Assembly: GCA_947470895.1 (NCBI GenBank)
Contig: CANIVF010000020.1
Coordinates: 1 to 61,606 of the forward strand
DNA: 61,606 nt
From: Bacteroidota bacterium
GTDB lineage: Bacteria > Bacteroidota > Bacteroidia > Cytophagales > Cyclobacteriaceae
Direction: 5' to 3'
The first letter of the stretch is position 1. Every line of letters begins with the position of its first letter. Below the pieces are notes generated by a model. The model worked only from the letters and a program-made list of their open reading frames with translations. It ran no database searches and was not told where the DNA came from. Positions 4,754 through 58,656 of the stretch are shown one piece after another. Position numbers and translations under genes: made by a program.

Positions 4754-5047
4754 GTAATACAGCGTTAAGAAATTTTGTCAAAAAACAAAGGTACTCAATA
4801 TATTCAGGCGATGTAGATGAGCGTTTAATGATTGCACATACCTAAGAAATATGAAATTTTGTGAGTAAAATTGAACCCAAACTATGCCAGCCATCGTTTT
4901 ACAACCACTGGCATTTCTTTTGATTTTGCGGGGGAGTAATGAGAGGACAAAAAAAATCTGATTTTAACATTCAACTAATCTTTACGGAAACTCATCGTGT
5001 TTCTGCTAATCATTTTTTTAACCATTAAATAAACTGTACAAAGAATT
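4754..5047. other. Divergent intergenic region (294 bp)
   Basis: This region separates the leftward methyltransferase from the rightward protease and must hold both promoters. No clean TTG/TAnnTTTG pair was found. The only structure seen is a weak 7-bp inverted repeat (ATGCCAG at 4884-4890 with CTGGCAT at 4908-4914) followed by a T-rich stretch, which may be a remnant terminator. No coding signal was seen. Confidence 0.4.
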
Positions 5048-10918: not shown

Positions 10919-11889
10919 TTTGCTTTTACCCTTTGCATCAAATCATGGATTATAATCTCTGCATGCACTCTGGAGTTTTCAATAAACCATTTATTTGTTT
11001 TAAGACCTCCACATACTACGCCTGCCAGGTATAAATTGGTTACGTTGCTCTCCATAGTTCCTTCATCGTAGACAGGCGTGTGATATTCATCATCGTGAAA
11101 AGTAATTTCCATCGATTTCATAAAATCAAAAGGAGGTTGATAGCCTGTCATCGCCAGTACAAAATCATTTTCTAAGACTTCATTGCCAACAGGCGTGCTG
11201 ATTTCAATGGATCTCGGAGTTATCCGAATCACTTCCGACTCAAAATATGCTTTTATAGAGCCTTCTTTAATCCGATTTTCAATATCGGGCTTCACCCAAT
11301 ACTTCACGCTTTCGCGGATAGTTGATTCTCGAATGATCATTGTTACTTCGGCACCTTTGCGCCAGGTTTCAAGGGCAACATCTACAGCTGAATTAGCCGC
11401 GCCAATTACCGCCACTTTCTGACCAAAATATGGATGTGGTTCACCATAGTAATGCTTTACTTTGGGCAACTCCTCACCTTCTACATCTAACAGGTAAGGC
11501 AGATCATAAAATCCCAAAGCAAGTATCACCGCCTTTGCCTGGTAAGTGGCTTTAGCTGTTTTAATGCAAAAGATCACTCCTTGCTTTTTTACCTCCTCTA
11601 CCGGCTCGTATAATTTCACATGGAGCTTCCAAGTGGTGCACACCCTGCGATAATATTCTAATGCTTCCGATCTGGTCGGTTTGGGGTTGTTGGAAATGAA
11701 CGGCACGTTTCCAATTTCAAGTCGCTCGGAAGTAGAAAAGAAAGTCATGTTGAGCGGATAGTGATATAAAGAATTTACCAGGCATCCTTTCTCCAGAATA
11801 ACATAATTCATCCCCGCTTTCTGGGCTTCGATGGCACACGCCAAACCAATAGGACCAGCACCGATGATGATTAAATCTTTCCCTTCCAT
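10915..11889 (-). CDS. ypdA: YpdA-family FAD/NADPH (putative bacillithiol) disulfide reductase
   Basis: A 324-residue flavoprotein. The N-terminal FAD motif is IIIGAGPIGLACAIEA (residues about 6-21), a second GxGxxA-type nucleotide motif is VAVIGAANSAVDVALE, and the C-terminal FAD-contact region is LYLAGVVCGGLKTNKWFIENSRVHA. The length and the absence of a thioredoxin-reductase CxxC fit YpdA, which in Firmicutes reduces oxidised bacillithiol with NADPH. Members are widespread in Bacteroidota, some of which make bacillithiol; the substrate here is inferred. The gene is monocistronic and convergent with the lipoprotein gene. Confidence 0.85.
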   Translation of the reverse strand: MEGKDLIIIGAGPIGLACAIEAQKAGMNYVILEKGCLVNSLYHYPLNMTFFSTSERLEIGNVPFISNNPKPTRSEALEYYRRVCTTWKLHVKLYEPVEEVKKQGVIFCIKTAKATYQAKAVILALGFYDLPYLLDVEGEELPKVKHYYGEPHPYFGQKVAVIGAANSAVDVALETWRKGAEVTMIIRESTIRESVKYWVKPDIENRIKEGSIKAYFESEVIRITPRSIEISTPVGNEVLENDFVLAMTGYQPPFDFMKSMEITFHDDEYHTPVYDEGTMESNVTNLYLAGVVCGGLKTNKWFIENSRVHAEIIIHDLMQRVKAK

Positions 11890-12026
11890 CCCTTAAGCTT
11901 TATATTTTTAGCAATAATGAGAAAATTCATTCGCTAAACATCATAAATTTATAAAGCATAACTGATTGTTAAACTAGTTTTGATTAGCGCTGAAGGCGAA
12001 TTTTCGAAATACAGAATTGATATCAC

Positions 12027-43272: not shown

Positions 43273-45075
43273 ATGAAGCATCTTTACGTTGTTTTAATCT
43301 GCCTCATACTTTCTAACACATCGCTTTTAGGGCAACCCAATATTCCTATTCTCGAAAGGAAAATTTCCATCACGGCTTCCAATGAAAAGATTTCCTCGAT
43401 ACTTAATCGCATCGGGCAACATGGAGGATTTTCTTTTTCGTATAACAGCGCGATTATAACTCCGGAAGAAACTACGTCATTGAACATGACCGACAAATCC
43501 GTTCGTGAAGTGCTTAATGAAATATTTAAAGGCACCCTGAATTTCAAAGAGAAAAGCAATTACCTTATTCTCACCAAAGCCATTACGCCACCTGTAAAAA
43601 ATGACATCGTGGTGATTGTTCTTAATGGCTATGTCGAAGACGGCAAAACCGGAGAAAAAATTACACAGGCCAGTGTGTATGAAAAAAGTTCGGTCACCGC
43701 AACCACCACCGATCAATATGGATATTTCAAACTAAAATTGGAGAAGAAGTCTGATTCCGTTTTCATATCGGTAAACAAGAAAAATTATCGCGATACATTG
43801 GTGGGCATCACGGTTCCAGACAATCAGTATTTTAAAATTTCCATATTTCCCGAAATAGATTCTGCGGAACACATCACCCAGAAAGAAACCATTGATACCG
43901 CCACTAATGATGCCAATGATCTCTTATTCCCGTATGAAGATGAACCAAACGTTCAGAATATCCATGATACTCTATATCAATTGGTGCAGGCTTCCATTCT
44001 TCCATTCATAGGCACTAACCAGCGACTGAGCGGCAACGTGATCAATGATTATTCAATCAATTTTTTAGGCGGCTATTCGCTAGGCACGCGTCAGATTGAG
44101 TTGGGGTTTTTCGTTAATATGGATCGGGGTGATGTGAGCTGGCTGCAGGTGGCTGGATTCGGAAATCTAGTAGGAGGAAATGTGTTTGGAATTCAGGCAG
44201 CAGGATTTTCTAATGTGAATGGCGGTGAAACCAAAGCGGTGCAGCTGGCAGGATTTGCCAATACCAACTTTGGAGAGAGTCGCGGAGTACAGATAGCCGG
44301 ATTTGCCAATACAAATCTAAACAGCATGAACGGTGTGCAGGTAGCCGGATTTAGCAATGTAACCCTTGGAGATTCGAGAGGTGCACAGATAGCTGGCTTT
44401 AGCAATGTACAGACTGGAGACTACCGGGGATCGCAGATAGCGGGACTAACCAACATTGCTACAGGAAAAATTTCAGGCTCGCAAATTTCAGCTTTATTCA
44501 ATCATGGCAGGCGTGTGCATGGAACACAAATCGGATTGATCAATTATGCCGATAGCTTAGGCGGTGTTCCTATCGGGCTGTTGAGTATCGTGAAATCCGG
44601 TTATCACAAAATCGAACTTTCGGCTGATGAAGTCTTTTACACCAATGTTGCTTTTCGTACGGGTGTGAGAAAATTTCACACCATGCTGATAGCCGGATTC
44701 AAACCTCAGCAATCATTAAATGCTTCTGATACTTCTGTCTGGACATTTGGTTATGGGCTGGGCACAGCCCGAAAATTAACCCGCTGGCTTTATCTCGATC
44801 TGGATCTTTCATCGCAACATGTAAACAAGGGTGGCTTTACCAACTCGTTGAGTTTATTAAATAAAGCATATGTCGGTCTTGAATTTCAAGTAGCAAAAAA
44901 ATTCTCCATTGCTACCGGCATTAGTTTGAATGGATACATAACACGCAATACCTATTCGCAATATCCGGAACTCTTCACCGATTATAAACCCAAAATAATC
45001 TTCGATGAAAATCTGAATCACAACATTAATCTGAAGATGTGGTGGGGTGCTAAAGTTGCACTACGATTTTTATAA
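43273..45075 (+). CDS. STN-domain plus LA_2272-repeat outer-envelope protein
   Basis: A 600-residue exported protein (signal MKHLYVVLICLILSNTSLLG). An STN domain (residues about 28-100; ISITASNEKISSILNRIGQH...NLTDKSVREVL-like) is followed by a carboxypeptidase-regulatory-like beta domain (about 118-190; GYVEDGKTGEKITQASVYEK). Then come eight or so short repeats of the form GVQ(V/I)AGF(S/A)N between about residues 290 and 430, the LA_2272-type surface repeat, and a barrel-like C-terminal region ending WWGAKVALRFL. STN domains contact FecR. Here the expected TonB-dependent transporter is absent and this protein takes its place. Start is 9 bp after the fecR-like stop. Confidence 0.85.
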   Translation: MKHLYVVLICLILSNTSLLGQPNIPILERKISITASNEKISSILNRIGQHGGFSFSYNSAIITPEETTSLNMTDKSVREVLNEIFKGTLNFKEKSNYLILTKAITPPVKNDIVVIVLNGYVEDGKTGEKITQASVYEKSSVTATTTDQYGYFKLKLEKKSDSVFISVNKKNYRDTLVGITVPDNQYFKISIFPEIDSAEHITQKETIDTATNDANDLLFPYEDEPNVQNIHDTLYQLVQASILPFIGTNQRLSGNVINDYSINFLGGYSLGTRQIELGFFVNMDRGDVSWLQVAGFGNLVGGNVFGIQAAGFSNVNGGETKAVQLAGFANTNFGESRGVQIAGFANTNLNSMNGVQVAGFSNVTLGDSRGAQIAGFSNVQTGDYRGSQIAGLTNIATGKISGSQISALFNHGRRVHGTQIGLINYADSLGGVPIGLLSIVKSGYHKIELSADEVFYTNVAFRTGVRKFHTMLIAGFKPQQSLNASDTSVWTFGYGLGTARKLTRWLYLDLDLSSQHVNKGGFTNSLSLLNKAYVGLEFQVAKKFSIATGISLNGYITRNTYSQYPELFTDYKPKIIFDENLNHNINLKMWWGAKVALRFL

Positions 45076-45159
45076 AATCTTCCTTTAAATATTGGTTTGC
45101 GAAGACTCTGCTACAATGAATCCCCATTTGCATTAACATTTTGATGTATTCACCTACAA

Positions 45160-47673
45160 CTAATTCTTTGAACCAAAAATTAAAATTGGAAAATCGTTGC
45201 CGAACGAAAAACTGGCTGGATACTGAGCAGCACCTTTATATTTTGCAGAAAGTTCAGGCACTCTTTGTTCTATATAAGTACTTAACTCCCGAATGGTAAG
45301 AGAACCATCCGTTATCGTGCCTGCATCTTTTCCCTGAAGGGCTTCCAGAAGGGAATAGGTAAAAACCCCATGACCAAGCTGGGCAAATTCCGTAGCAAAC
45401 TGATCCGAACCTGCTGCGGTAAGCCAAAATGTGCCAGTGCTCCTGGCCAATTGGCCGATGGCTTTTTCTTCTGCGGCCCCGCGGGTGACTGCCGAGTTTA
45501 AAGCGCCAGCGGAATGGCAGGCATCAATAATGAATACCTGCTTTTGAGCATTAATGGCCATGGAAAGTTTTTTTATTTCACTGGCTGAAATTGCCTTTTC
45601 TTTTAGCAATGCTTCATTCCCATAAAGTTGGGTTACATCCTGGGGAACAATATAGAATTCGTTGGCAGGGGCTTCGCTCATGGTGCCATGCCCCGCATAA
45701 TAAAAAATAAACATGTCCTGTTCTTGCACCGTACTGCTCATCTCTTTGAAAACATTGATAACATTTGCTTTTGTTGCCTGGCCTTCAAACAATGTTTTTA
45801 TTACTATTGATTCAAACAAAGCTGAACCGCCTTTCTCCAACTGCCCTTTTATCGCTGTTGCATCCGGCAAGGCATAGTTTAGTTCATATTTTGGATTTTG
45901 ATATTTATTGATACCAACGACCAAAGCATATAATTTAGGTTTCGTATTATCTTTCTCCGCATACGTAACCGTGAGTTTACATTTTTCAGAGTCTAATCCA
46001 TCATTTGTACTGGCTATCGCATGCATTGAATTAGCATCTCCAAATAACGAATTTAAGCTGGCGGTGAATGAGTAATTGGCCGTTCCATTGGCGGGTTGAT
46101 TGCCCACTAATTTTCCATTATGATATAACCGCACTTCTTTTACTTGATTCAGGTTGGCGGTAATTTTTAAGCGAACCACAATGTTTTTCTGTTTTGAACT
46201 AAAGGTGGCCATAGTTCCTGCATCCCTCGTTACAGCCTTTTCATTGACATCGAGAAACTCTAAAGTGGGCACTTGCTTCATGTCCTCATCAATGGTAACA
46301 GTTTTAACTGCAACAGCTCCGTCCGTTAACAGCTCATCGCCATTTAAAATAGTGTAGAGCAACCGTGGTGTATAATATTTATCGAAGGATGACTCCACGG
46401 AGGCTGTGCGCATGAGCTTGTCTCCATCATATTCTCTCCATTCCAGTTTTTCAAAAGCGCCTTGAGTGCCATCAATACGACCATCTTTGGCAATCACCGC
46501 CCAATCCTCCATGTCGGTAAAAATGTTGGCTACCACCTTGCGCTCTTTAGTGCTGAATAAACTCATAATGCCCGTGCTATACGTTATCAAATAGAAAGCG
46601 CCTCCGTTAATTTTCGTTAACCCTCCATTACTTACACTTTTCTTACCTTTTTCATTAGGGATAAGGATTGCTGCTTTATCAACAGCTTTGATGTAGGTAT
46701 CTTTTGCTTCAAATAAAATATTGCCTGAAGCAACATCGATAAGTTTTATAGTTCCGTTCGGGGAAACAGAAATAAACTCTCTCCCGTTATCCAATATTTG
46801 GGTCTGCCTTTCAGTATTGAAAAATTCCTTTATGGTACTTAAACCGTCCGGACTTAATATTTTCGCGGAAAAACCTGACCCGTTTTTTCCAGATTTGTTA
46901 CCCATCAAATTACAAAACATTCTATTGTCGTTTAGCATTTGAATAAGATAGGGGCTTTCTTCTTTGAATTCTATCGTCTGTAATAGTTTGCCGCTCTGAA
47001 GACTATACACTTTAATGCTACTTTCCTTAAGGTTTATGCCATAGAGTTTAGTACTATCAGGGGATATAGTTACATTTTGAATATCAAACTGATACTTAAT
47101 TTCATATTGACCATTTTTTTCTTCGGCTAGGGCAGAATGTGGTGGGTTAAAATCAGTAGACTGGAACACTCTGTACTTTCCACTTGGTATGATAGGAAAA
47201 TACCCAACTGGTGGTTTGCTGATAATTTTCTTTTCGTTGTTGGTAAGCCATATAAAAGATGAAGCGTTTGAAGTCTCAATCATATTCTGCTCTACCGTAA
47301 GCCACTGATTTAACTTTGAGAAATCCATAACATGCAATTCATTTTTAATGTTGCGTGCATAAATTCCATCCTGATTTAACTCCAACCTTCCATTTTTCAA
47401 GTTAATTATTTTAGACGAGTAAGCGGATTTTAATTGCTTATAATCCTTACTAAAATCTGTTTTTGATGTTGTTATCCCAAGCCTATTATTGTCCTCACTT
47501 ACGGAGGGTAGAACCATTACCATGTTATTGCCCTCTTCCTTGTCGTAATCTTTTTTCTCCAGATACCTAACCGTTTGTGCTTGTAAGGTGCCCGTAAGTG
47601 AAATAAAGCATATTACCAGATATAGTCGTTTCCTCGTGCAAAGCAATAAAAAGGCAATAGTTACTTTTTTCAT
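45160..47673 (-). CDS. Exported propeller plus caspase-like (C14) peptidase
   Basis: An 837-residue protein with a long N-terminal signal or anchor (about 33 residues, ending TLQAQ). Residues about 40-440 are propeller-like repeats (TISPDSTKLYGINLKESSIKVYSL). A beta-sandwich region follows at about 470-570, and the C-terminal peptidase C14 domain starts KPKLYALVVGINKY. The catalytic dyad is His662 (YYAGHGT) and Cys719 (IIDACHSAG), both intact; numbers are from coordinates. Bacterial orthocaspases cleave after basic or acidic residues; target unknown. The signal peptide argues for an envelope role rather than cytosolic phage defence. It stands alone. Confidence 0.9.
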   Translation of the reverse strand: MKKVTIAFLLLCTRKRLYLVICFISLTGTLQAQTVRYLEKKDYDKEEGNNMVMVLPSVSEDNNRLGITTSKTDFSKDYKQLKSAYSSKIINLKNGRLELNQDGIYARNIKNELHVMDFSKLNQWLTVEQNMIETSNASSFIWLTNNEKKIISKPPVGYFPIIPSGKYRVFQSTDFNPPHSALAEEKNGQYEIKYQFDIQNVTISPDSTKLYGINLKESSIKVYSLQSGKLLQTIEFKEESPYLIQMLNDNRMFCNLMGNKSGKNGSGFSAKILSPDGLSTIKEFFNTERQTQILDNGREFISVSPNGTIKLIDVASGNILFEAKDTYIKAVDKAAILIPNEKGKKSVSNGGLTKINGGAFYLITYSTGIMSLFSTKERKVVANIFTDMEDWAVIAKDGRIDGTQGAFEKLEWREYDGDKLMRTASVESSFDKYYTPRLLYTILNGDELLTDGAVAVKTVTIDEDMKQVPTLEFLDVNEKAVTRDAGTMATFSSKQKNIVVRLKITANLNQVKEVRLYHNGKLVGNQPANGTANYSFTASLNSLFGDANSMHAIASTNDGLDSEKCKLTVTYAEKDNTKPKLYALVVGINKYQNPKYELNYALPDATAIKGQLEKGGSALFESIVIKTLFEGQATKANVINVFKEMSSTVQEQDMFIFYYAGHGTMSEAPANEFYIVPQDVTQLYGNEALLKEKAISASEIKKLSMAINAQKQVFIIDACHSAGALNSAVTRGAAEEKAIGQLARSTGTFWLTAAGSDQFATEFAQLGHGVFTYSLLEALQGKDAGTITDGSLTIRELSTYIEQRVPELSAKYKGAAQYPASFSFGNDFPILIFGSKN

Positions 47674-48225
47674 TTAGTAAGATTTTGATTTAAGCAGAGT
47701 TGGGATGAAGCAAGAGAAAGGCAAACTACGGTTAATTGCACATTGCAAACAATATTGTTGAGGTCTAAGATTTAGGCTCTCAAAAACTCTCTGCCGGGCT
47801 GCCTGTAGACACGGGGCAGACTTGCTTTGAATAACATTGTTCATTCACGATATCTATTTTTCTAGCTTCCTCATGTATCAAGAACCAATTTTTAATTCAG
47901 GATACTTTCTAATTAACCGTGCGGATGGCTTTGGCTCTTATCATTACTTTGGATTGTGCGTGGTGTGTGGAAAGGGCCTGAGCCAAATGAGCAGGGAATT
48001 CTATTGGAGAATCTTGACAAAAAACGCGAAGGATTGGCCATTCGATTTTATAATTTGTTCAACGCTATTTATTTTTTCATAGTCCAAGTTGTCACGAAGT
48101 CGTTCATTTGTCCAAGTGAGAAATCTTTGTTAATAATGTGTCACCAGTTAGTTGAATTTTTTGTTAGGCCACATTGCCACCAACCTCGACATTTTTGATA
48201 TCTCGCTTTGTATTTATTTAAATTT
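47674..48225. other. Non-coding or decayed region (552 bp)
   Basis: No recognisable gene was seen. The first 100 bp should hold the promoter of the leftward caspase-like gene. Two overlapping short plus-strand frames (47837-48082 and 47956-48198) have no motif, no neighbour support and conflicting reading frames. The stretch between 47900 and 48080 may be the remains of a gene because one frame has coding-like text (GPEPNEQGILLENLDKKREG), but the family is unknown. Confidence 0.4.
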
Positions 48226-48598
48226 TAATGCGCCTCCAGCCAATTCTTTACTATTCCCACTTCCACTTCCATGGGCACATCAAGTATCACGGCCGACCTC
48301 ATGAGTTCAATCACCTTGAGTTTTACAATTTTCTGTTCTTCATGATGAAGGTCAAACACTAATTCGTCATGCACCTGCATGATCATTTTTGTTTTTAGCT
48401 TTTCGCGCTCCAGCCATTTGTGAATTTGAATCATTGCGATCTTAATAATATCCGTAGCGCTTCCCTGTATGGGTGCATTGATCGCGTTACGCTCGGCAAA
48501 ACCTCGCGTAGTAATGTTGCGTGAGTTAATGTCGCGCAGGTAGCGTCTTCGTCCTAAAATGGTTTCTCCATATTCTTTCTCGCGTGCAAAGTTGATGG
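48225..48598 (-). pseudogene. 3' fragment of DNA polymerase I (second copy of the polA tail)
   Basis: This 373-bp segment is a gap-free copy of the last 124 codons of the intact polA gene (52515-52887), about 91% identical by eye count (roughly 32 differences, only about six of them changing an amino acid). It runs from the INFAREKEY region to the WLEAH end and its own TAA stop, and keeps motif C (QVHDELVFD). It lacks the exonuclease domains and polymerase motifs A and B, so it cannot be functional. Changes at usually conserved sites (YGETILG for YVETILG, GIVKNW for GIGKNW) suggest relaxed selection. Homology stops abruptly at 48598. Confidence 0.93.
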
Positions 48599-48738
48599 TT
48601 TCAGTTGCAAGCAATGCCAAGGTAAGTGTATCGCAGGCTCTGGAGGTAAATGCAAGTGGTGCCAGTTTAGTTTTATATCGCGGCAACCCACAACTGGAAG
48701 TGGAGACGAGTGGAGAGAGTATTGTGAAGCCGGAGTAG
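48598..48738 (+). pseudogene. C-terminal fragment of a DUF2807 (GIN-domain) protein
   Basis: A 46-codon plus-strand frame starts exactly where the polA fragment ends and stops at TAG 48736. It reads VSVSQALEVNASGASLVLYR, then GNPQLEVETSGESIVKPE. The ASGAS...YRGNP...SG.S pattern is that of the end of DUF2807 head-GIN beta-helix proteins. There is no start codon, and the 5' part is missing at the same breakpoint that truncates the polA copy. Confidence 0.7.
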
Positions 48739-48779
48739 TTAAAACAAGCTTTGCCAGTCTTCACGAGCAAGGTCTATTC

Positions 48780-48866
48780 TTATTTCGGATTTGCTATTTC
48801 GCTCATGCGTTCATACCATCCTTTTGCAAGCCACTGTTTAAACGGCTCTGCTTCTGCAGAAGGCAT
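48780..48866 (-). pseudogene. Fragment of a BRO-N/DinD-like (phage antirepressor-type) protein
   Basis: A 28-codon minus-strand remnant reads MPSAEAEPFKQWLAKGWYER, then MSEIANPK. It matches, from memory, the conserved PSPKAEPFK.WLAKVGYER..EI.NP segment of DinD/BRO-family proteins. Both ends are broken: an in-frame stop precedes it and another follows NPK. Such proteins occur in prophages, integrative elements and some chromosomes. Confidence 0.6.
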
Positions 48867-48944
48867 TGATTAGGGATAATTTAATGCGAAGTACGTATAA
48901 ACAATTTGTGACTTAAATTGCGACTATGTTAAGCAGCAGCCATG

Positions 48945-51890
48945 CTATTTTTTGACAAAAGCTCTAGTTGAACTTTTGTCTCCTTGAATGACTTTAATAC
49001 TATAAAACCCGATTGGAAGTGTTGACAGGGAGATTGAGATTGTTTGAAGATTTGAACTCCTGCTTTGATGAACGATTTGACCCATTAGATTGTAAATCGC
49101 ATAGGATAGTTCACAACAGCTGTCAAAGCCTTTGAATAGTATGTTGATTTCAGTTGTTGCTGGAACAGGAAATACTTCTATTGCGCACGCTTGCTCATGA
49201 TCAGAAACTTCGGTAATAGGAGATAATTTAACCATAATGACATTTGAAGGAGGCGAGTATACAATATCGCCAGAGTTGTAATATCCACCAGCTCGGATTC
49301 TATAGTAATAAGTTAGGTCGTTGAGCAAATCAGAAAAGTTAATACCATTATACTGTCCTTGTATGATAACATTAAAAGGATCACTGAACTCTTTGTCCAA
49401 AGCAATATCAAAAAAATAAGAATTAGGCCAATTAGTAGCGGCAATACGATTCCAATTCGCTGTAAAGGAGGTAGGGGTAATTTCAGAAGGTGGAAGAGCT
49501 TCAGGTGTAAGGAAAGTAAAAGTGTGGACTTTGCCTGAGCTTAATGATGAACTTCTGCCATTGAACGAGCGTACACGAAAATAGTAGTGGGTCAGAGGCT
49601 TGAGCCCGCTAAACAAAAAAGAGGTATCATTTACAGGCAAATTGATAAAACCCCCGACTAAAGAAAAAAGGTTATCGCTGAATAAGTCAACGAAATAGCT
49701 GACTGCTCCTACTTCATTTCTCCATCGCACGCGGAATGAAGTACTAGCGCTATCGACCGTTTGCAAAGATGAAGGAGGATTTGACCCCCTTAAATCAATT
49801 ATTTGTAAACGATTGGCGGAAGGCTCAGCTATGTAGCAATAATTATTATTAATAAATGGTGTAGTGGGTCCGATTCTAGCCTCACCATCTTCGTTTAAAA
49901 CTCGAGTCACAAGAGTAGGGTCGTTTTTTTTCGAAATGTCCAATACTATAAGAGAACCTGGGGAGGTCACATATGCAAAATTTCCTTCAACTGAAATCCC
50001 TGAAGGATTGCTGAGTATGTAATCTGGAAAATTGGTTTTGCCGGTATGCTTGGGGAGTAATGGGTTGGATACGTCAACTATTTCTACAGTATTAGAAGAA
50101 GCACTTGTTAAGTAGACGTATCCGTAAGATAAATATAGACTACTTCCACTGAAGATTACAGCACCATCGGTTCCGTTCTCTAGACTAGACACAATGAATG
50201 GCGCAGATGGGTTTGAGATGTCTATAATTTGCAAGGCATAAGCTGTTGACAGATAAGCGTAATTTTCTTTCACTACCACAGCTGTCGGCAAGATGGCTGT
50301 GTTAATGGAGGCCAAATGAATTGGAATCAAAGGATTATTTATGTCAACAATCTCTAAGTTGCTAGTATAGTAGTTACAGATAAAGGCATAGCCACCGGAA
50401 ACAAACAATGAATAGGGGTCGCCTAATGCGGCCCCATTATCGCCATTTGACAATGTAGATACATGAACAGGATTGGTTGGATCAGAGACATTGATGATTT
50501 CTAGGGCATATCCCCACCTGCTTGCTACAAACGCCAAATCATTAGAGACATATACACCGCTCGCTCCTATCAAATTCGCTCCGTTCTGCCCATTAATAAG
50601 TATGCCCGCAGGGAGAGGTTTACTGGGGGTACTGACATCGATTACTGTCAATGAATTGCTGACAGAACAGGCCACATAAGCATGGTCTCCTACAACATAA
50701 ACCGATCGAGCGCCCTCCAGCTTAACACTTCCGTCCCCGTTTTTTATGGTCGCTTTATGAAAAGGTGTAGTCGGATCAGAAACATCTGCAATTTCCAATG
50801 AAGAACTATTTGTCGACAATATGTAGGCGGCTGTGCCTGATACCAGCACGTTGACAGGATAATTAAGAGTAGCATTTCCTTCGCCATTTTCCAGACTTCC
50901 CGAGTGAACCGGATTGGCGGGGTCCTTTATGTTAACTATTTCAAGTGCATTGCTTACAGAACATGTAACGTAAGCAAACTCACCATTGACTGACACTGAG
51001 TTTGGGAATATTAAAAGCGCACCACCTTCGCCATCCCTAATACTACCGACATGTTTTGGTGCTGCTCGGTTCGTTATGTCAATAACCTCGAGAGAACTTG
51101 ATCCTATACCCACTGCATAGGCATAGTTGCCTTGGATGCTTATTGATCCCACTTGAGTCAGTAATGCTCCTCCAGCACCATCCGTCAGCCTGCCCGCATG
51201 TTTTGGTGAAGCAGGATTTGAAACATCGATAACTTCGATAGAGCTTGACTCTGTGCAAGCAACGTATGTATAGTTATCTTTTACATAAACTGATCTCGGG
51301 CTTTTAAGTGCAATGCCAGCAACCCCATCTGATGCTGTGCCTACATGGAAGGGATTGGCTGGAGATGAAATATCCAGTATTTCGACTGTATTGTTCCCAA
51401 GATTGGTAATGTATGCATATTGACCCGAGACATGAATAAATTGAGGAAATGAAAGTAACGCCCCCTGATATCCATTTGAAATGCGAGCTGCAACCACAGG
51501 GTTTAATGGATCTGAAATGTTAACAACCACTAATTTACTATCCCAATAGGATGTTATTAATGCATATGTTCCCGAGATTGCAATCGATCGGGCGTCATCA
51601 AATATTGCGTTAGTAACACCATTTATTATGCTTGAAACTATTGCTGGAGATGAGGGATTTGAAATATCAATTATTTGTAAGCCGGAACCAGTAGCTACAT
51701 AGGCATAAGTACCTTTTATCTGAATCGCATTCGGTGCGGCAAAGTATGTCCCGAACGATCCATGCCAAATGGCCCCAGCATCGCCTAATACTGGGGTCTG
51801 GGCAGTGCAAGCTGTAAGACTAATTAACAGAATGATAAGACTCGTAATACAAAACCTTAGAAAGGAGCTCGTGATAGTATCTATTGTCAT
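48945..51890 (-). CDS. LVIVD-repeat protein with fibronectin-III domains and T9SS sorting domain
   Basis: A 981-residue surface or secreted protein. After an N-terminal signal (a possible lipobox lies in ISLTACTAQ) come about 14 repeats of roughly 49 residues, each with a core such as GNYAYVACSVSNALEIIDIS followed by NP..PVHVGSL.NGDGGA. These are LVIVD-type repeats that build a propeller-like fold. Two fibronectin-III-like domains follow (about residues 715-795 and 800-890). The last 75 residues (VFPVPATTEINILF...ISLSTLPIGFYSIKV) are a type IX secretion sorting domain. The ligand is unknown. It lies inside the 3.9-kb segment bracketed by the two polA tails. Confidence 0.88.
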   Translation of the reverse strand: MTIDTITSSFLRFCITSLIILLISLTACTAQTPVLGDAGAIWHGSFGTYFAAPNAIQIKGTYAYVATGSGLQIIDISNPSSPAIVSSIINGVTNAIFDDARSIAISGTYALITSYWDSKLVVVNISDPLNPVVAARISNGYQGALLSFPQFIHVSGQYAYITNLGNNTVEILDISSPANPFHVGTASDGVAGIALKSPRSVYVKDNYTYVACTESSSIEVIDVSNPASPKHAGRLTDGAGGALLTQVGSISIQGNYAYAVGIGSSSLEVIDITNRAAPKHVGSIRDGEGGALLIFPNSVSVNGEFAYVTCSVSNALEIVNIKDPANPVHSGSLENGEGNATLNYPVNVLVSGTAAYILSTNSSSLEIADVSDPTTPFHKATIKNGDGSVKLEGARSVYVVGDHAYVACSVSNSLTVIDVSTPSKPLPAGILINGQNGANLIGASGVYVSNDLAFVASRWGYALEIINVSDPTNPVHVSTLSNGDNGAALGDPYSLFVSGGYAFICNYYTSNLEIVDINNPLIPIHLASINTAILPTAVVVKENYAYLSTAYALQIIDISNPSAPFIVSSLENGTDGAVIFSGSSLYLSYGYVYLTSASSNTVEIVDVSNPLLPKHTGKTNFPDYILSNPSGISVEGNFAYVTSPGSLIVLDISKKNDPTLVTRVLNEDGEARIGPTTPFINNNYCYIAEPSANRLQIIDLRGSNPPSSLQTVDSASTSFRVRWRNEVGAVSYFVDLFSDNLFSLVGGFINLPVNDTSFLFSGLKPLTHYYFRVRSFNGRSSSLSSGKVHTFTFLTPEALPPSEITPTSFTANWNRIAATNWPNSYFFDIALDKEFSDPFNVIIQGQYNGINFSDLLNDLTYYYRIRAGGYYNSGDIVYSPPSNVIMVKLSPITEVSDHEQACAIEVFPVPATTEINILFKGFDSCCELSYAIYNLMGQIVHQSRSSNLQTISISLSTLPIGFYSIKVIQGDKSSTRAFVKK

Positions 51891-52070
51891 CTTAAGAAGA
51901 GTTATTATCCTAAGAAAATAAGATTATTACTTTGATATCGTCTGTTAATTGTCAGCCATTCAACTTTTGAAATCCAAAATTTCAGAGCCTGATAAAAGCG
52001 TTGAATGAAGATAAAACTTAAAACCATCTGGTCACGGAATCATTTAGGAACATTTGTGGTGCGCTGCAGG

Positions 52071-52505
52071 CTACTTCCGAGTTGTTGAATGAAGAAATTT
52101 CATTTTCCATTGTCCGTCAACTTTTTGGAATGTCGCATTTTCGAGCCAGTCTACTTGCGTTTTAATTGTGTCATTGATAATGAAATCGCCATGGTTATAG
52201 TAAATAATATCGCCACTATTTTCATCTATATTCACTTTCATATTTTCAAAAGTCCACGAGCCCTTAAATGATTTCACATTAGGGTTTGGTTTGACTAAAC
52301 TGTCATTGGTCAAGATTTCTCCATCCTCAAAAAGAACAAAGTCCATTGTCGTTAGTGAGTTCAATTTCTCCAGGTCTTGTGTTTTTATTCCATCAAAATA
52401 GTCGGTTAGAATTTTTTTTAGAACTTCTGGGTCGTCCTTTTTTTGCTGGCAACTTGCCAGTAGCCCCAGGCATAAAATAATTGTTAGAATCTCTCTAGTT
52501 TTCAT
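52071..52505 (-). CDS. Lipoprotein with NTF2/SnoaL-like (DUF4440-type) domain
   Basis: A 144-residue lipoprotein; the ATG at 52505 gives MKTREILTIILCLGLLASC with a lipobox cysteine. The mature part (PEVLKKILTDYFDGIKTQDLEKLNSLTTMDFVLFEDGE...WKMKFLHST) has the layout of NTF2-like proteins of the DUF4440/SnoaL type, a helix followed by a curved sheet with a trailing WKM(K)FLHST strand. No catalytic residues can be assigned. It starts 9 bp after the polA stop on the same strand and may be read from polA transcripts. Confidence 0.75.
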   Translation of the reverse strand: MKTREILTIILCLGLLASCQQKKDDPEVLKKILTDYFDGIKTQDLEKLNSLTTMDFVLFEDGEILTNDSLVKPNPNVKSFKGSWTFENMKVNIDENSGDIIYYNHGDFIINDTIKTQVDWLENATFQKVDGQWKMKFLHSTTRK

Positions 52506-52513
52506 ATTTATGT

Positions 52514-55249
52514 CTAATGCGCCTCCAGCCAATTCTTGCCTATCCCCACTTCGACTTCCATAGGCACATCGAGTATCACCGCTGAGCGCATGAGTTCGAT
52601 CACTTTGGGTTTTACAATTTCCTGTTCTCCATGATGAAGATCAAACACCAATTCGTCATGCACCTGCATGATCATTTTTGTTTTTAGCTTTTCGCGCTCA
52701 AGCCATTTGTGAATTTGAATCATGGCTATCTTAATGATATCCGCAGCGCTTCCCTGGATGGGTGCATTGATCGCGTTGCGCTCGGCAAAACCTCTTGTAG
52801 TAATGTTGCGCGAATTGATGTCGCGCAGGTAGCGTCTTCGTCCTAAAATAGTTTCCACATATTCTTTCTCGCGTGCAAAGTTGATGGAGTCATCCATGTA
52901 ACGTTTGATGGCGGAGAACTCTTTGAAATAGGCTTCAATGATTTCAGCTGCTTCGGTTCGTGATATCCCCAGGTTTTGCGAAAGACCAAAGGCCGTGCTT
53001 CCATATAAAATTCCAAAGTTCACTTCCTTCGCTTTACGTCTCATGTCGGGAGTAACTTTATCCAAAGGCACCTTGAAAACTTTGGCAGCCGTTGTCGCGT
53101 GAATGTCGCGCTTGTTGCGGAAGGCTTCAATCATGGTTTCATCTTTCGCAAACGATGCGGCAATGCGCAATTCAATCTGCGAATAATCGGCAGACATGAA
53201 CAGGAAATCTTCACCACGAGGAACAAAGGCTCCGCGTATTTGTCTTCCTTTCTCTGTGCGTATAGGTATGTTCTGAAGGTTAGGATTATTTGAACTCAAT
53301 CTTCCCGTGGCAGCCACGGCTTGCCGATAGTCAGTGTGAATACGATGATCAAGTTTGCTCACCATCTTGGGCAATGCATCCACGTAGGTGGAGCGAAGTT
53401 TTTCATATTCGCGGAAGTCCAGAATTTTTTTCGCGATCTCATGCTCGTTAGCCAGCTTCTGCAACACATCTTCCCCGGTAGCATATTGTCCGGTCTTTGT
53501 TTTCTTCGCTTTGTCTAGCAGCTTCATCTTGTCAAACAAAATTTCTCCCAACTGTCTTGGCGATGCGATGTTGAACTCCGTGCCGGCAATTTCAAAAATT
53601 TCCTTCTGTACAATGGCGCTGTCCTTCTTCAACGCTTCCGACATCCACTTCAGTGTTTCTTCATCCAGGTTCACGCCTTCAAACTCCATGTGCGCGAGCA
53701 CCGACACCAGCGGCATTTCTACTTCGCGCAACAGACGCCACTGTCCTTTTTCCTGTAACTCTGCTTCGATTTTAGATTTTATCTGAAGGGTAAGATCTGC
53801 ACGTTCGCAAGCCGATTCATAATTTTCAGTTTCCTCGTTTAAGTGATAATCCAGATACTGACCACATAAAATAGAAAAGTCGTGCGAGGCTTCTGGCTCA
53901 ATTAAATAATGAGCAAGCATGGTGTCAAACAAATTGCCCTTCACATCAATGCCATATTTTTTCAATACCAGAATGGACGACTTAATGTTATGACCCACTT
54001 TGCCTATGCGATCATTCGCAAAGACATCGGCAAATTCATGAAGAGTACTCTGGGCTTCGTTGCTGAGTGGAACAAAAAAACTTTCGCCTGGTGAATAGGA
54101 GCAGGTAAAACTCGTGGCAATAAAATCAAAGTTGGCAGCCTCGTCCGTTAACACTTCAAACGAAAACTGTTTTTGATCTTTTAATTTCTGAATCAGTTCT
54201 TGTCGGCCTTCTGCTGTATCCACCTGGTGATAGGAAACACTCGTTTTGTCGAGTCCTTTCTTTTCAACCATTGGTGCAGGTGTTGACTCTTCAGATGGCG
54301 ATAAGCCAAACATACTAAGCTGCGAAGGCTTTGATGCAGAAGTAGTAGAAGCAACAGCAGGAGCGCCATGCTGAAGACCAAAGATGCGCGGTGCCATAGT
54401 TTTAAATTCAAGCTCCTCAATGATGGGCTTCAATTTTTCAACATCGGGTCCGGTGTAAACCAAATCCTCTTCATCCCAGGGCACGGGCACATCAATAATG
54501 ATGGTTGCTAATTTCTTGGATAAAATTGCTTGTTCACCAAATTGCTCAACGCGTTCCTTTTGTTTACCCTTCAATTCACTGGCGTGCGCAATAATATTCT
54601 CGACAGTCTTATATTGCTTTAGAAGTTCTGCAGCGGTCTTAGGTCCTATGCCCGGAATACCAGGAATGTTATCGGATGTGTCTCCCTGCAATCCCAATAT
54701 ATCAATCACCTGAGAGACATCTTCGATATCCCACTTTTCACAAACTTCTTTTGTCCCCAGTATGTCTACCGCATTGCCCATATAGGCGGGCTTATAAAGG
54801 AGAATCTTTTCTGTAACGAGCTGCCCAAAATCTTTATCGGGTGTCATCATAAAAACTTCGAACCCTTCTTTCTCTGCGCGCTTGGCAATGGTGCCGATAA
54901 TATCATCTGCTTCAAATCCATCCAATTCCAAAATTGGAATGTTAAAGCCCCGCAGTATTTCTTTCACTTTCGGCACACCGCTTCGAATGTCTTCGGGAGA
55001 CTCCTGACGGTTGGCTTTATATTCCGGAAAAATCTCATCGCGAAATGTTTTGGCCGAAGTATCAAATGCCACCGCGATGTGTGTGGGTCTCTGCTTTTGA
55101 ATTACTTCCAGCAAGGTGTTGGTAAAACCAAACGGCACGGATGTATTAATTCCTTTGGAATTGATTCGTGGATTTTTGGTGAAAGCAAAGTGTGCGCGGT
55201 AAATGAGCGCATATGCATCAAGAAGAAAGAGTTTTTTATCAGAGGCCAT
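52514..55249 (-). CDS. polA: DNA polymerase I, proofreading domain inactive
   Basis: A 911-residue PolA. The 5'-3' nuclease domain (residues 1 to about 300) keeps its acidic residues (LLDAYALIYRAHFAF, ELDGFEADDIIGTIA, TPDKDFGQLV, GDTSDNIPGIPGIGPKTA). The polymerase domain keeps motif A (SADYSQIELR), motif B (RRKAKEVNFGILYGSTAFGL) and motif C (QVHDELVFD). The 3'-5' exonuclease fold is present but its catalytic acids are lost: DxE is EVL at 365-367, the exo II Asp lies in KSSI, and the exo III Asp is Arg in CERADLTLQ. It replicates and repairs DNA without proofreading. The last 124 codons are duplicated at 48226-48598. Confidence 0.96.
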   Translation of the reverse strand: MASDKKLFLLDAYALIYRAHFAFTKNPRINSKGINTSVPFGFTNTLLEVIQKQRPTHIAVAFDTSAKTFRDEIFPEYKANRQESPEDIRSGVPKVKEILRGFNIPILELDGFEADDIIGTIAKRAEKEGFEVFMMTPDKDFGQLVTEKILLYKPAYMGNAVDILGTKEVCEKWDIEDVSQVIDILGLQGDTSDNIPGIPGIGPKTAAELLKQYKTVENIIAHASELKGKQKERVEQFGEQAILSKKLATIIIDVPVPWDEEDLVYTGPDVEKLKPIIEELEFKTMAPRIFGLQHGAPAVASTTSASKPSQLSMFGLSPSEESTPAPMVEKKGLDKTSVSYHQVDTAEGRQELIQKLKDQKQFSFEVLTDEAANFDFIATSFTCSYSPGESFFVPLSNEAQSTLHEFADVFANDRIGKVGHNIKSSILVLKKYGIDVKGNLFDTMLAHYLIEPEASHDFSILCGQYLDYHLNEETENYESACERADLTLQIKSKIEAELQEKGQWRLLREVEMPLVSVLAHMEFEGVNLDEETLKWMSEALKKDSAIVQKEIFEIAGTEFNIASPRQLGEILFDKMKLLDKAKKTKTGQYATGEDVLQKLANEHEIAKKILDFREYEKLRSTYVDALPKMVSKLDHRIHTDYRQAVAATGRLSSNNPNLQNIPIRTEKGRQIRGAFVPRGEDFLFMSADYSQIELRIAASFAKDETMIEAFRNKRDIHATTAAKVFKVPLDKVTPDMRRKAKEVNFGILYGSTAFGLSQNLGISRTEAAEIIEAYFKEFSAIKRYMDDSINFAREKEYVETILGRRRYLRDINSRNITTRGFAERNAINAPIQGSAADIIKIAMIQIHKWLEREKLKTKMIMQVHDELVFDLHHGEQEIVKPKVIELMRSAVILDVPMEVEVGIGKNWLEAH

Positions 55250-55324
55250 GGGGCGAAGGTAGAAAGAAGGGATATAAGTTTAAACAGGAAAGTCAGGCTA
55301 ATCTCTTTATTACCTAAAAAAGAA

Positions 55325-55350
55325 AAGAGCGGAAATGCTTCCGCTCTTCT
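55325..55350 (-). terminator. Terminator between the SPFH gene and polA
   Basis: AAGAGCGGAA (55325-55334) pairs with TTCCGCTCTT (55339-55348) around a 4-nt loop. On the minus strand the stem is followed by TTCTTTTTT-like sequence, so it ends the leftward SPFH transcript. Confidence 0.85.
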
Positions 55351-55373
55351 TTTCATAATGATTATCGGTATTT

Positions 55374-56627
55374 CTAATTTTTGTTTTTCAAATCCAGTGC
55401 AAAGTCCCTGGCCGTTTTGGCTGTCATGATATCCATAAAGTTAAGCGCTCCATTGGTAGTTGGTCCTCCTCCGGTTTGAATCTGTGGCACCACCGCACCG
55501 GTGTATTTGCTAAATGCCTCGGCCCATACTTTCTGTACTTCTACCTGAGCTTTTAGTTTCATCTCAAGAGCTCCATCGGCCTGCATGATTCTTTGTCTTG
55601 CATAAGCATTCGCATCGGCCAACTCTTTAATTTTCTTAGCTTCGAGAATAGATCCTTCATAGGCAATTTTCTGTTGCATCTTATCTTGTTCAGCAACCTT
55701 CACTTTAGTTTGCGCTTCTACTACCTGCTTGGTTTGCTCCTGCTTTTGCTGATATTCAATTTCCACCAGGGCTTGTTCACCTTTTGCTTTCGCGGTAAGC
55801 GTTTGCTGTTGGGCCGTCATCAATTCTTGTTTTGAAATGGAAGACTTAGTTACTGCATCAATGATCTTCACCAATTTCTCATCCACTTTGTTTTCATAAT
55901 CCACATCAGTGATGGCAGCATCCGCTACCGTAATACCATACTCCTTTATAGAAGAAAGTTTACGCTTCGGTGCGGATGTTTTTTTGTCATATTGAATTTC
56001 GGTTTGATACACTCTTTTCTTTTCCATCTCTAATGAATCGTATACTACGTTCTCTTCCGTTACCAATAAATAAACACCTTCTTTTAACTGATCTAAAAAA
56101 TCCTGCGCCATTTGCGCGCGACCGCCACCGTAGTGTTTCTCACTGCTCATCAATTGAGCTGACGATTGTAAACACTCTTTTGTATAGGGAGCCAGTCTCT
56201 TCACCACCAATGACTGTGGCGTTCTGTGTGTGTTGTGAATAAGAATCATTTCTTTTTCATCCGATGGTAAAATAAACTGGGTAATACCACGCACATCGGC
56301 TGTAGTCGCATCGCTAAAGCGAATCATGATCTGGCCTACTTCAATGCCGTTGTCTTCGATCTCCAGCTTAGGCACAGCATCCTGATAGGTAACGGAGATC
56401 TGGTTTGGCCATTCTTTTTCTTTTGCGAAGAACCCTGCATAGAATATTCCGGGCGCAAACTGAACAATCTGTTCACCATTTGTTCGCTCTACCACGGTGC
56501 GATTTCCCGCATCGTTCCATGAGAAAGGATTAACAATAAGAAAGAGGATTAATCCAAGAATAGCTGCTACACCTGCAGCGATTGTCTTTTTTGTAATCAT
56601 AGGGTTGTTGGGATTAGTTGAATTCAT
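55374..56627 (-). CDS. SPFH/Band-7 domain membrane protein
   Basis: A 417-residue protein with one N-terminal membrane segment (KKTIAAGVAAILGLILFLIVNPF). A Band-7/SPFH domain spans about residues 40-250 (NRTVVERTNGEQIVQFAPGIFYAG, VGQIMIRFSDATTADVRG, KEYGITVADAAITDVDYENKV). A long coiled-coil at about 255-365 is rich in Ala, Glu, Gln and Lys (AKAKGEQALVEIEYQQKQEQ). It ends in an alanine-rich helix. SPFH proteins form membrane-bound ring assemblies, often controlling proteases. No partner protease is adjacent. A 41-codon membrane peptide gene ends 4 bp upstream, likely in the same transcript. Confidence 0.87.
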   Translation of the reverse strand: MNSTNPNNPMITKKTIAAGVAAILGLILFLIVNPFSWNDAGNRTVVERTNGEQIVQFAPGIFYAGFFAKEKEWPNQISVTYQDAVPKLEIEDNGIEVGQIMIRFSDATTADVRGITQFILPSDEKEMILIHNTHRTPQSLVVKRLAPYTKECLQSSAQLMSSEKHYGGGRAQMAQDFLDQLKEGVYLLVTEENVVYDSLEMEKKRVYQTEIQYDKKTSAPKRKLSSIKEYGITVADAAITDVDYENKVDEKLVKIIDAVTKSSISKQELMTAQQQTLTAKAKGEQALVEIEYQQKQEQTKQVVEAQTKVKVAEQDKMQQKIAYEGSILEAKKIKELADANAYARQRIMQADGALEMKLKAQVEVQKVWAEAFSKYTGAVVPQIQTGGGPTTNGALNFMDIMTAKTARDFALDLKNKN

Positions 56628-56631
56628 CTGA

Positions 56632-56757
56632 TTAAGAGTTTTGATTTTTGTTGGGGTTGTTTTTGTTTGAAAAATAGTTGGTGAGCAGCAATACTATAAC
56701 GTATGCAACAATACCGAACACGGCCAGAAATCCGACCGCTAATGCTAATCTAATCAT
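56632..56757 (-). CDS. 41-aa single-pass membrane peptide
   Basis: An ATG frame of 41 codons ends 4 bp before the start codon of the SPFH gene. It encodes one membrane helix (LALAVGFLAVFGIVAYVIVLLL) followed by a short polar tail rich in Asn and Lys (FSNKNNPNKNQNS). Spacing and orientation suggest translational coupling with the SPFH gene, and a small partner or regulator of the ring is possible. No family is recognised. Confidence 0.6.
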   Translation of the reverse strand: MIRLALAVGFLAVFGIVAYVIVLLLTNYFSNKNNPNKNQNS

Positions 56758-57009
56758 AAGTTTGTGTGTCTTTAAATGTGAGAAAACTGAACGTGACGAA
56801 AGCGTCTGTGATTTTGCAACCTGAATGATGTGTTACATGTATGTTTGTGAATTTTGAACATATATGCAGCATCGATCAGGAGGGAAACCAAGGAAACAAA
56901 AATTTATTTTAACCAAGGTAAATCCTGCTTAAAAGGACAGTTCATTTAATATTGCCGCACTTTACTTTTTGATCTTTTCTAGGTAAATAGTACGTCTAAA
57001 TCGTTTGTT

Positions 57010-58656
57010 ATGATCCAAAGCAACCCCCTCGTTCAGTTTCTTAAATGGGAAAAAGAAGTGCCCAACGACTTGTTTCTTCGTCAACCTTTTGAGGGTGAGT
57101 GGCGTAACTGGACGTTTCAACAGGCGGGAGAAGAAGCCAGAAAAATTGCCGCGGGCTTAAAACAGCTAAACCTTCCTAACCGCAGCAATGTTGCACTGCT
57201 TTCAAAAAACTGCGCCCATTGGATCATCGCAGATCTTGCCATTATGATGGCCGGACATATTTCTGTTCCACTCTATGCAACGCTTACCGCACAATCCATT
57301 CAACAGATTCTAGAACATAGTGAGTCGAAAACAATCATCATCGGTAAACTCGATCATTACAAAGCACAACAAGAAGGAATTCCTGTCAGTATGATTCGCA
57401 TCGGTATAGAATTGTATGGAATAAAAGAATCGCACTCGTGGGAGAACATGTTAGCTACTGAAAAACCAGTTTCAGAAGTTGCTTCGTGGGATTATGATGA
57501 GCTGCTTACCATCATGTACACATCCGGCACAACGGGCAAACCCAAAGGTGTGATGCACTCCGCTGGAAATTTCGATGCTGTGTTGAATGTTGCTATTTCA
57601 GATTTATTACTTCCAAAAAGACCGAGGTTGTTTTCATACTTACCCATAAGTCACATTGCTGAGCGCATGGGCGTAGAGATGGCTGGCATTTATCTTGGAG
57701 GAATGTTCTCCTTTGCAGAATCGCTGGAGACTTTCCCTAAAAATCTTTCCGACACTCAACCTGATGTTTTCTTTGCGGTGCCTCGCATCTGGGCAAAATT
57801 CCGTGAGAAGATTTCAGAAAAATTGCCTCCTAAAAAATTAAACACGCTGCTCTCCATTCCTATCATCAATAATGTGATTCGTAAAAGCATCAAGAAAAAA
57901 TTGGGCCTTTCAAAAGCCACCCATATTTATTCTGGCGCTGCTCCCATTTCTGTGGATATGCTGGAATGGTTCGATAAGATTGGTGTTACCATTTATCAGG
58001 CTATCGGCATGACAGAAGATTGTATCTACTCGCATTTCAATAGAGCAGGAGCCAATCGTTTTGGAACGGTGGGTAAAGCACTCTCAGGCTTGCAATTTAA
58101 AATTGCTGACGATGGCGAGATGAGAATAAAAAATCCCAGCCTGATGAAGGGCTATTATAAAGAGCATGAACTCACCGTTGCTGCATTTGACGAACAAGGA
58201 TTTTTAAAAACAGGCGATAAAGCAGAGAAGGACAAAGATGGCTATGTATCTATTGTGGGAAGAGTGAAAGATCAATTCAAAACAGACAAAGGAAAATATG
58301 TTTCGCCTGCGCCTATTGAAATGATGTTGACGGCCAATCAGGATATTGAACAGGCCTGCGTAGTAGGCATGGGCATACCACAACCTATTGCGTTAGTGGT
58401 GCTTTCCGCTGCCGGAAAGGCAAAATCGAAAGAAGACATAGCATTAAGCCTGGCGAACTCAATCAGTCAGGTTAATCCCAATCTGGAATCGTACGAAAAA
58501 CTTGAGAAAGCTGTGATCATGAAAGGCGAATGGACCATTGAAAATGGCTTGATCACACCAACCCTGAAGGTGAAGAGAAATGAAGTAGAGAAAATTCACA
58601 TTCCCAAATATCCGACCTGGTATCATACACAGCCTGGCGTAGTGATATGGGAATGA
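57010..58656 (+). CDS. AMP-dependent acyl-CoA synthetase (long-chain fatty-acid ligase type)
   Basis: A 548-residue ANL-superfamily ligase. The P-loop-like motif is IMYTSGTTGKPKGVMHS, followed by YLPISHIAERMGVE, the A5 motif YQAIGMTEDCIYSH, and the A8 hinge KTGDKAEKDKDGYVSIVGRVKD. The length is shorter than typical fadD-type proteins, but the order is complete. It activates a carboxylic acid to acyl-CoA; chain length cannot be read. It could feed the acyl-CoA cluster at 30-35 kb, though the two are 22 kb apart. It has its own 250-bp upstream region. Confidence 0.92.
   Translation: MIQSNPLVQFLKWEKEVPNDLFLRQPFEGEWRNWTFQQAGEEARKIAAGLKQLNLPNRSNVALLSKNCAHWIIADLAIMMAGHISVPLYATLTAQSIQQILEHSESKTIIIGKLDHYKAQQEGIPVSMIRIGIELYGIKESHSWENMLATEKPVSEVASWDYDELLTIMYTSGTTGKPKGVMHSAGNFDAVLNVAISDLLLPKRPRLFSYLPISHIAERMGVEMAGIYLGGMFSFAESLETFPKNLSDTQPDVFFAVPRIWAKFREKISEKLPPKKLNTLLSIPIINNVIRKSIKKKLGLSKATHIYSGAAPISVDMLEWFDKIGVTIYQAIGMTEDCIYSHFNRAGANRFGTVGKALSGLQFKIADDGEMRIKNPSLMKGYYKEHELTVAAFDEQGFLKTGDKAEKDKDGYVSIVGRVKDQFKTDKGKYVSPAPIEMMLTANQDIEQACVVGMGIPQPIALVVLSAAGKAKSKEDIALSLANSISQVNPNLESYEKLEKAVIMKGEWTIENGLITPTLKVKRNEVEKIHIPKYPTWYHTQPGVVIWE

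Follow-up and report, generated by a model that had tools for sequence, protein, structure and literature searches.

How can the 3' end of a conserved housekeeping gene come to stand twice on one chromosome while the gene itself stays intact? The question is raised by the polymerase gene polA of a Bacteroidota bacterium (Cyclobacteriaceae; assembly GCA_947470895.1, contig CANIVF010000020.1), whose genome, a draft of 4.92 Mb in 167 contigs with 0.27% contamination, is labelled G000 here. The window, which is the whole 61,606-nt stretch that was analysed, contains an intact polA that ends in what we call copy B and, beyond its stop codon, an orphan polA end, copy A (Table 1). We favour, with a probability of roughly 0.6, the view that the window is a chimera in which two versions of one chromosomal interval were joined once by homology-facilitated illegitimate recombination (HFIR), whichever of the two was imported.

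The polA 3' end is present in two diverged copies

Positions 48226-48598 (copy A) and 52515-52887 (copy B) align without gaps on the same strand, with 32 differences over 373 bp (91.4% identity); when the whole stop codon is included (48225-48598 and 52514-52887), there are 33 differences over 374 bp, as copy A ends in TAA and copy B in TAG. Since the match had an E value of 1.4e-149 in a search within G000 itself, the repeat is not due to chance. Beyond the stop codon at one edge and 48598/52887 at the other, the copies are no longer similar. Our recount agrees with an earlier note on this DNA, which had described a gapless direct repeat with about 32 differences, roughly 91% identity and about six amino-acid changes (we count six), and the positions of the differences confirm the identical 30-bp block that it had seen at the inner edge (48569-48598 and 52858-52887). 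A run of 30 identical bp at one given end has a chance of ~0.07 at 91.4% identity, and the block is therefore weak evidence for an attachment-site (att) core. A whole-polymerase search of the genome found no further polA sequence in G000 and no second polA elsewhere.

The divergence of the two copies was constrained. Third codon positions account for 24 of the 32 differences, and six of the 32 are nonsynonymous, against 73% expected under random change (P = 1.8e-10). When the differences were polarised by the plurality among 48 other tails of the genus and the order, those at third positions split 12:12 between A and B; on the copy A side alone, 5 of 17 were nonsynonymous (P = 2e-4), on the copy B side 1 of 15. 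Because the differences are mostly at third positions and few are nonsynonymous, both copies must have been coding, as working gene ends, for most of their divergence. In a tree, A and B are sisters (support 100/99), and the nearest polA tails among the compared genomes are only ~83% identical to those of G000. The two copies would thus descend from a pair of close lineages or else from duplicates that coexisted for long: the sister relation and the constrained divergence are what a diverged but related donor in HFIR would leave, and an old duplicate would give the same picture. Of the six amino-acid changes, five are derived in copy A, B's base at those sites being present in 40-48 of the 48 other tails, and copy A probably decayed later.

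Copy A is joined to a broken DUF2807 gene

At the inner edge of copy A, the polA interior passes directly into the interior of a DUF2807 gene, a single joint between unrelated sequences as expected from HFIR. The remaining scrap, DUF2807', scored 15.2 in Pfam against a cut-off of 24.2 bits, and its identity is borne out by eight relatives (L110, L112, L114, L116, L118, L119, L120, and L121), to whose DUF2807 it is 52-67% identical over 48 aa. In all eight, the order is a 600-aa protein, a gene that we take, judging by its sequence, to be TonB-receptor-like, and an intact DUF2807. The broken gene of G000 stands in this usual neighbourhood, with a stop-to-stop distance between DUF2807 and the 600-aa protein of 3663 bp, as compared to 3181-3459 bp in the eight relatives. 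The TonB-like gene is absent from the interval in G000, and DUF2807 has lost roughly its first four fifths; in the place of the TonB-like gene and the DUF2807 start, G000 has a caspase gene, a spacer, and copy A. The scrap has no match at E 0.01 in the other DUF2807 places detected in G000. The usual neighbour of DUF2807, presumably coaX, lies on contig C87 of G000, with no DUF2807 scrap seen next to it.

Across the joint, 12 of 15 positions agree between polA and the DUF2807 gene of G067, the nearest relative, and 12 or more matches are reached at random registers with a frequency of 2.2e-5. As eight relatives were compared, this match is suggestive only.

Orphan polA tails recur in the order

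A search of 390 genomes of the order with the 123-aa polA tail as query gave a match in 363, and among the matches listed, seven genomes had more than one (G000, G081, G118, G139, G210, G222, and G357). When the search was repeated in the six others, G081, G139, and G357 proved to carry extra tails close 3' of polA: three orphan tails in G081 (248 bp, 94.8%; 79 bp, 87%; 122 bp, 89%), two in G139 (153 bp, 91%; 97 bp, 90%), and a rearranged one in G357, with pieces of 111 and 36 bp. All of them share the strand of polA and are located 3' of it. In G081 and G139 they extend to within 5 bp of the polA end; in G357 only the second piece does so. The second matches of G210 and G222, 30-32% identical and located inside open reading frames (ORFs) of 646 and 682 aa, were rejected as orphan tails, and that of G118 is 41% identical and on a separate 4.8-kb contig. 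By tail search, orphan polA tails are therefore present in four of 390 genomes and are rare; this number is a minimum, since the search misses short tails: the third and fourth matches in G081 came up only with that genome's own tail as query. Within the genus, 55 of 62 genomes matched, and a tail-only second match was found in G000 alone.

The inner edges of the orphan tails lie 374, 248, 153, 122, 97, and 79 bp from the polA end, and as they differ between cases, no common core is seen. Between the tails, there are DUF6934 proteins in G081, HicA, HicB, and DUF4160 in G139, and an AbiLi match together with a weak AbiLii match in G357. In the genus, genes of the toxin-antitoxin type are also located 3' of polA (MazF-like in L033, PIN with Phd-like in L036, nucleotidyltransferase in L034), which is compatible with a hotspot. 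In G081 (L237 reversed, 9852-10109 and 11689-11973), the polA tail and the DUF6934 gene that follows it are present twice with 69% identity, and this repeated unit looks as though it had been acquired twice.

A scan of 1198 ORFs for repeated tails yielded nine rows of the tail type, namely the polA of the window, L237 polA (three rows), L238 polA (two rows), L270, L212, and L267. It missed the known case of L239, in which an antisense ORF took the place of polA. The L212 row (588 bp) is probably a larger paralogue, and the L267 row (57 bp, 43 bp past the stop) belongs to a gene in a tandem pair. Four further repeats were not at a gene tail.

A tail remnant at another gene

The L270 row concerns genome G065, in which a 170-bp copy of the tail of a live gene, presumably an acyl-CoA dehydrogenase gene, lies 4.7 kb 3' of that gene. 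In the sister genome G061 (L269), the gene and its following flank are present and the 4.7 kb are missing. A comparison over 117 bp gives 3 differences between the remnant and G061, 16 between the live G065 tail and G061, and 16 between the live tail and the remnant. Identity of the live gene to G061 is nearly complete at ~4650-5090 (reversed contig) and ~88% from there up to the stop at 5641, and the remnant begins at the equivalent of 5519; the parentage in the live gene thus changes ~420 bp from the inner edge of the remnant. Judging by these identities, one parent would have contributed the gene up to ~5090 and the remnant, and another parent the live end. As a single integrase event would place crossover and joint at one point, the case favours HFIR over an integrase, and likewise over a circle; since the locus is a mosaic, it is supporting and not decisive.

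The stretch 1649-4248 of L270 reversed (2.6 kb) is almost identical to G061, with ~90% identity just outside, pointing to a recent exchange between the species. L270 also contains three short paralogous peptides (688-894, 907-1113, and 2074-2238, + strand) with a signal-like start and the C-terminal motif RCxVYxxxGxLxASCWFCxC, which resemble secreted small peptides.

A single joint would account for the locus

Version A of the interval would have had the order polA with tail A, caspase gene, 600-aa protein, and version B the order polA with tail B, lipoprotein, LVIVD protein, DUF2807 (and then TonB-like gene and 600-aa protein). Most likely, version B DNA would have entered the cell, and one of its ends would have recombined by homology within polA, replacing the polA 3' end. 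The other end would have been joined illegitimately, with the donor side within DUF2807 and the resident side within the polA tail, so that the last 374 bp of the resident gene would have been left as a dead copy A beside their former neighbours. No integrase would be required for this route, and the one joint at 48598/48599 would account at once for the doubled tail, the truncation of DUF2807, and the absence of the TonB-like gene. The incoming part would comprise copy B, the lipoprotein, the LVIVD protein, and DUF2807', and the resident part copy A, the caspase gene, and the 600-aa protein. B is taken as incoming because in G081, G139, and G065 the displaced piece follows its own live gene, with the joint in its tail; the mirror version, with A incoming, is possible. 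The sequence itself, the sister relation of the copies, their past constraint, the broken DUF2807 in its neighbourhood, and the recurrence of orphan tails are observations; the two parental versions, the single event, the import of B rather than A, and the route of DNA entry are what we infer.

The present end of the live polA was probably acquired recently, and copy A is probably the end that it displaced. This is supported by the neighbours of copy A, a spacer and a caspase gene of the kind found 3' of polA in G018, where the counterpart of the spacer sits upstream of a caspase-domain gene that is 25% identical to that of G000 (E 5e-29).

Several observations weigh against this explanation. 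Neither parental version was seen among the genomes compared, and the polA of G000 shows no demonstrable parental switch. In genus g42, no clear parental switch along polA was found either, and at the site that might have been empty there, the contig of G097 ends 287 bp past polA. By coordinate subtraction, polA and the 600-aa protein are ~350, 85, and 375 kb apart in G020, G008, and G024, so that close linkage of the two is not the rule; among the relatives measured, they are close only in G056, with the 600-aa protein ~23 kb 3' of polA and convergent as in G000. In G056, the TonB-like gene and DUF2807 are not present between the 600-aa protein and coaX. The match at the joint is found in only one of the eight relatives, the seven others having 7-9 matches of 15, and copy A's excess of nonsynonymous changes over copy B (5/17 vs 1/15) falls short of significance (P 0.18). 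When 107 polA loci with 1 kb or more of downstream sequence (106 distinct tails) were each compared with themselves, orphan tails turned up in L237-L239 alone, and these had been chosen as known cases. In G065, positions 4449-4648 of the live gene are only 76% and the flank past the remnant only 74% identical to G061, and a neighbouring 3.4 kb is nearly identical, with 1649-4248 of L270 reversed almost 100% identical between stretches of ~90%. This patchy identity indicates repeated exchange of DNA between the two species, so that the switch could have been shifted by a later event, and either parent may have been the resident there.

Alternative explanations

The alternative that survives best is a second full polA, acquired by tandem duplication or import, with both genes working for a long time before a deletion ran into DUF2807. 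The constrained divergence of both copies agrees with it, and the orientation of DUF2807' and copy A would permit a simple deletion. We nevertheless consider it unlikely, as no tandem polA was seen in the 62 genomes of the genus, where the nearly full second polA of G042 lies on a separate contig, in an assembly that has 6% contamination, and as it leaves unexplained why short tails of unequal length recur in G081 and G139.

The earlier note had proposed an integrative element that supplies a new tail, as phage 21 and e14 do at icd; its integrase would later have been lost. At icd, the element brings a replacement gene end and leaves direct repeats of the gene 3' end, using an integrase and a fixed core. 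The locus in G000 shares the directly repeated 3' end next to an intact gene and, most likely, the replacement of the live gene end with displacement of the old one, and this part of the proposal stands; the identical 30 bp at the inner edge and the case-by-case variation of the cargo between the tails would also suit an element. A site-specific element is nonetheless improbable. DUF2807', which on this view would belong to the element, is what remains of a gene that eight relatives have in their chromosomes, the inner edges vary between cases (different integrases could, however, use different cores), and in G065 switch and remnant edge are ~420 bp apart, which a later exchange could blur. 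No integrase was found in the Pfam-scanned ORFs of G000, G081, G139, and G357, a scan that did not take in every ORF, and loss is possible; for the ORFs scanned between the copies, Pfam agrees with the earlier note in finding a type IX secretion system (T9SS) surface protein, a lipoprotein, and gene scraps without an integrase. Neither hallmark of the icd system, integrase or fixed core, was found here. In the literature searched, polA was not found as an integrase site, and the polA-tail search gave three loci at 29-37% in viral contigs, a best match of 62.6% in phages, and a best listed match of 60.8% in plasmids, with no apparent sign in any of these of an element carrying a G000-like polA tail.

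A DNA circle with a polA end and downstream genes that integrated through a single crossover, as proposed for rhs loci (PMC2935791), would yield the same layout. It is more improbable still, as it predicts a remnant that starts upstream of the crossover, whereas the G065 remnant starts ~420 bp downstream, unless a later exchange shifted the switch. An assembly artefact joining two strains is very improbable even in a draft of 167 contigs, because a strain's working polA would hardly bear five derived changes at conserved sites, the rest of a second polA is not in this genome with its 0.27% contamination, and the pattern recurs in other assemblies.

Other features of the interval

Table 1. Position of the two polA ends, the joint, and the surrounding genes in the window.
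Feature	Position	Strand	Remarks
600-aa protein	43273..45075	+	conserved, anchors the interval; the TonB-receptor-like gene and the DUF2807 gene come after it in eight relatives
Caspase-domain gene	45160..47673	-	Pfam Peptidase_C14, E 7.4e-20; PADLOC caspase, E 3.4e-23; occupies the place of the TonB-like gene in relatives
Spacer	47912..48154		71% identical to DNA ~11 kb 3' of polA in G018
Copy A	48225..48598	-	orphan polA end of 374 bp; frame kept, TAA stop; five amino-acid changes, derived and at conserved sites
Joint polA interior / DUF2807 interior	48598..48599		12/15 matches with G067 DUF2807, 7-9/15 with seven others
DUF2807'	48599..48738	+	last 45 codons of the broken gene; Pfam E 0.018, below cut-off
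28-aa gene scrap	48783..48866	-	~52% identical to two other genome places; no Pfam match
LVIVD-repeat surface protein	48945..51890	-	Por_Secre_tail (T9SS) sorting domain; Pfam
DUF4440 lipoprotein	52071..52505 (from its ATG)	-	begins 9 bp past the polA stop
Copy B	52514..52887	-	terminal part of intact polA, stop TAG
Intact polA	52514..55249	-	911 aa

An orthologue of the LVIVD protein in G066 (79% identical) lies away from polA, and neither a polA tail nor DUF2807 was found in its neighbourhood. The 28-aa scrap is presumably DinD/Bro-like. An Rfam scan of 44900-57100 gave nothing up to E 0.1, and no tRNA or tmRNA was found.

The end of the caspase gene (45175-46141) is 70-71% identical to two other places in G000, on C11 and C12, and thus belongs to a small paralogous family. 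The ~54 bp at 52002-52055, between the LVIVD and lipoprotein genes, are 80% identical to sequences on C55 and C136 of G000 and to L044 and represent a small dispersed repeat. On the other side of polA, a Band-7-like gene (55374-56627) separates it from an acyl-CoA-synthetase-like gene; in relatives with the latter gene near polA, the Band-7-like gene is usually not in between.

Implications and comparison with known systems

We propose, only tentatively, that polA in particular, together with other conserved genes, may offer its 3' end as a recurrent landing site in Cytophagales that needs no integrase. Toxin-antitoxin, AbiL, and other accessory genes would ride in on core-gene homology, and the nested dead tails would record successive acquisitions that can be ordered and dated. 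If this were general, displaced tails of essential genes would reveal a normally traceless route by which small accessory and defence genes enter chromosomes with neither an integrase nor a transposase. As such tails can be counted, ordered, and compared, the order of acquisitions would become measurable, and scans for orphan 3' ends of core genes would reveal hotspots that integrase-based searches overlook.

The mechanism itself has precedents. In Escherichia coli, homology-assisted illegitimate recombination has been offered for dimorphic loci among small variable segments (PMC2884548), which is the same type of mechanism; displaced core-gene ends were not met in the parts of that report relevant here. 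At rhs loci, displaced 3' tips form arrays behind the live gene (PMC2935791), as in our case, but these are variable toxin tips for which a circular intermediate is proposed, whereas the tails found here are alleles of one conserved end. A further likeness is with the immunity-gene arrays of the Vibrio cholerae type VI secretion system (T6SS), for which HFIR was proposed, with incoming DNA anchored by homology in a gene and its other end joined illegitimately, displaced old 3' material downstream, and arrays arising from repeated events (PMC5361080). These T6SS arrays displace variable toxin genes; in G000, by contrast, the end of a conserved housekeeping gene would be displaced. Variable toxin ends, as in the rhs and T6SS arrays, were not what we found displaced, the tails being alleles of a conserved polymerase end. 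In the literature searched, at the level of search listings, no report of displaced tails or HFIR at polA was found. HFIR and displaced 3' ends are already known from other systems, and what the polA locus adds to them is the displaced end of a conserved housekeeping gene, with only the cargo varying.

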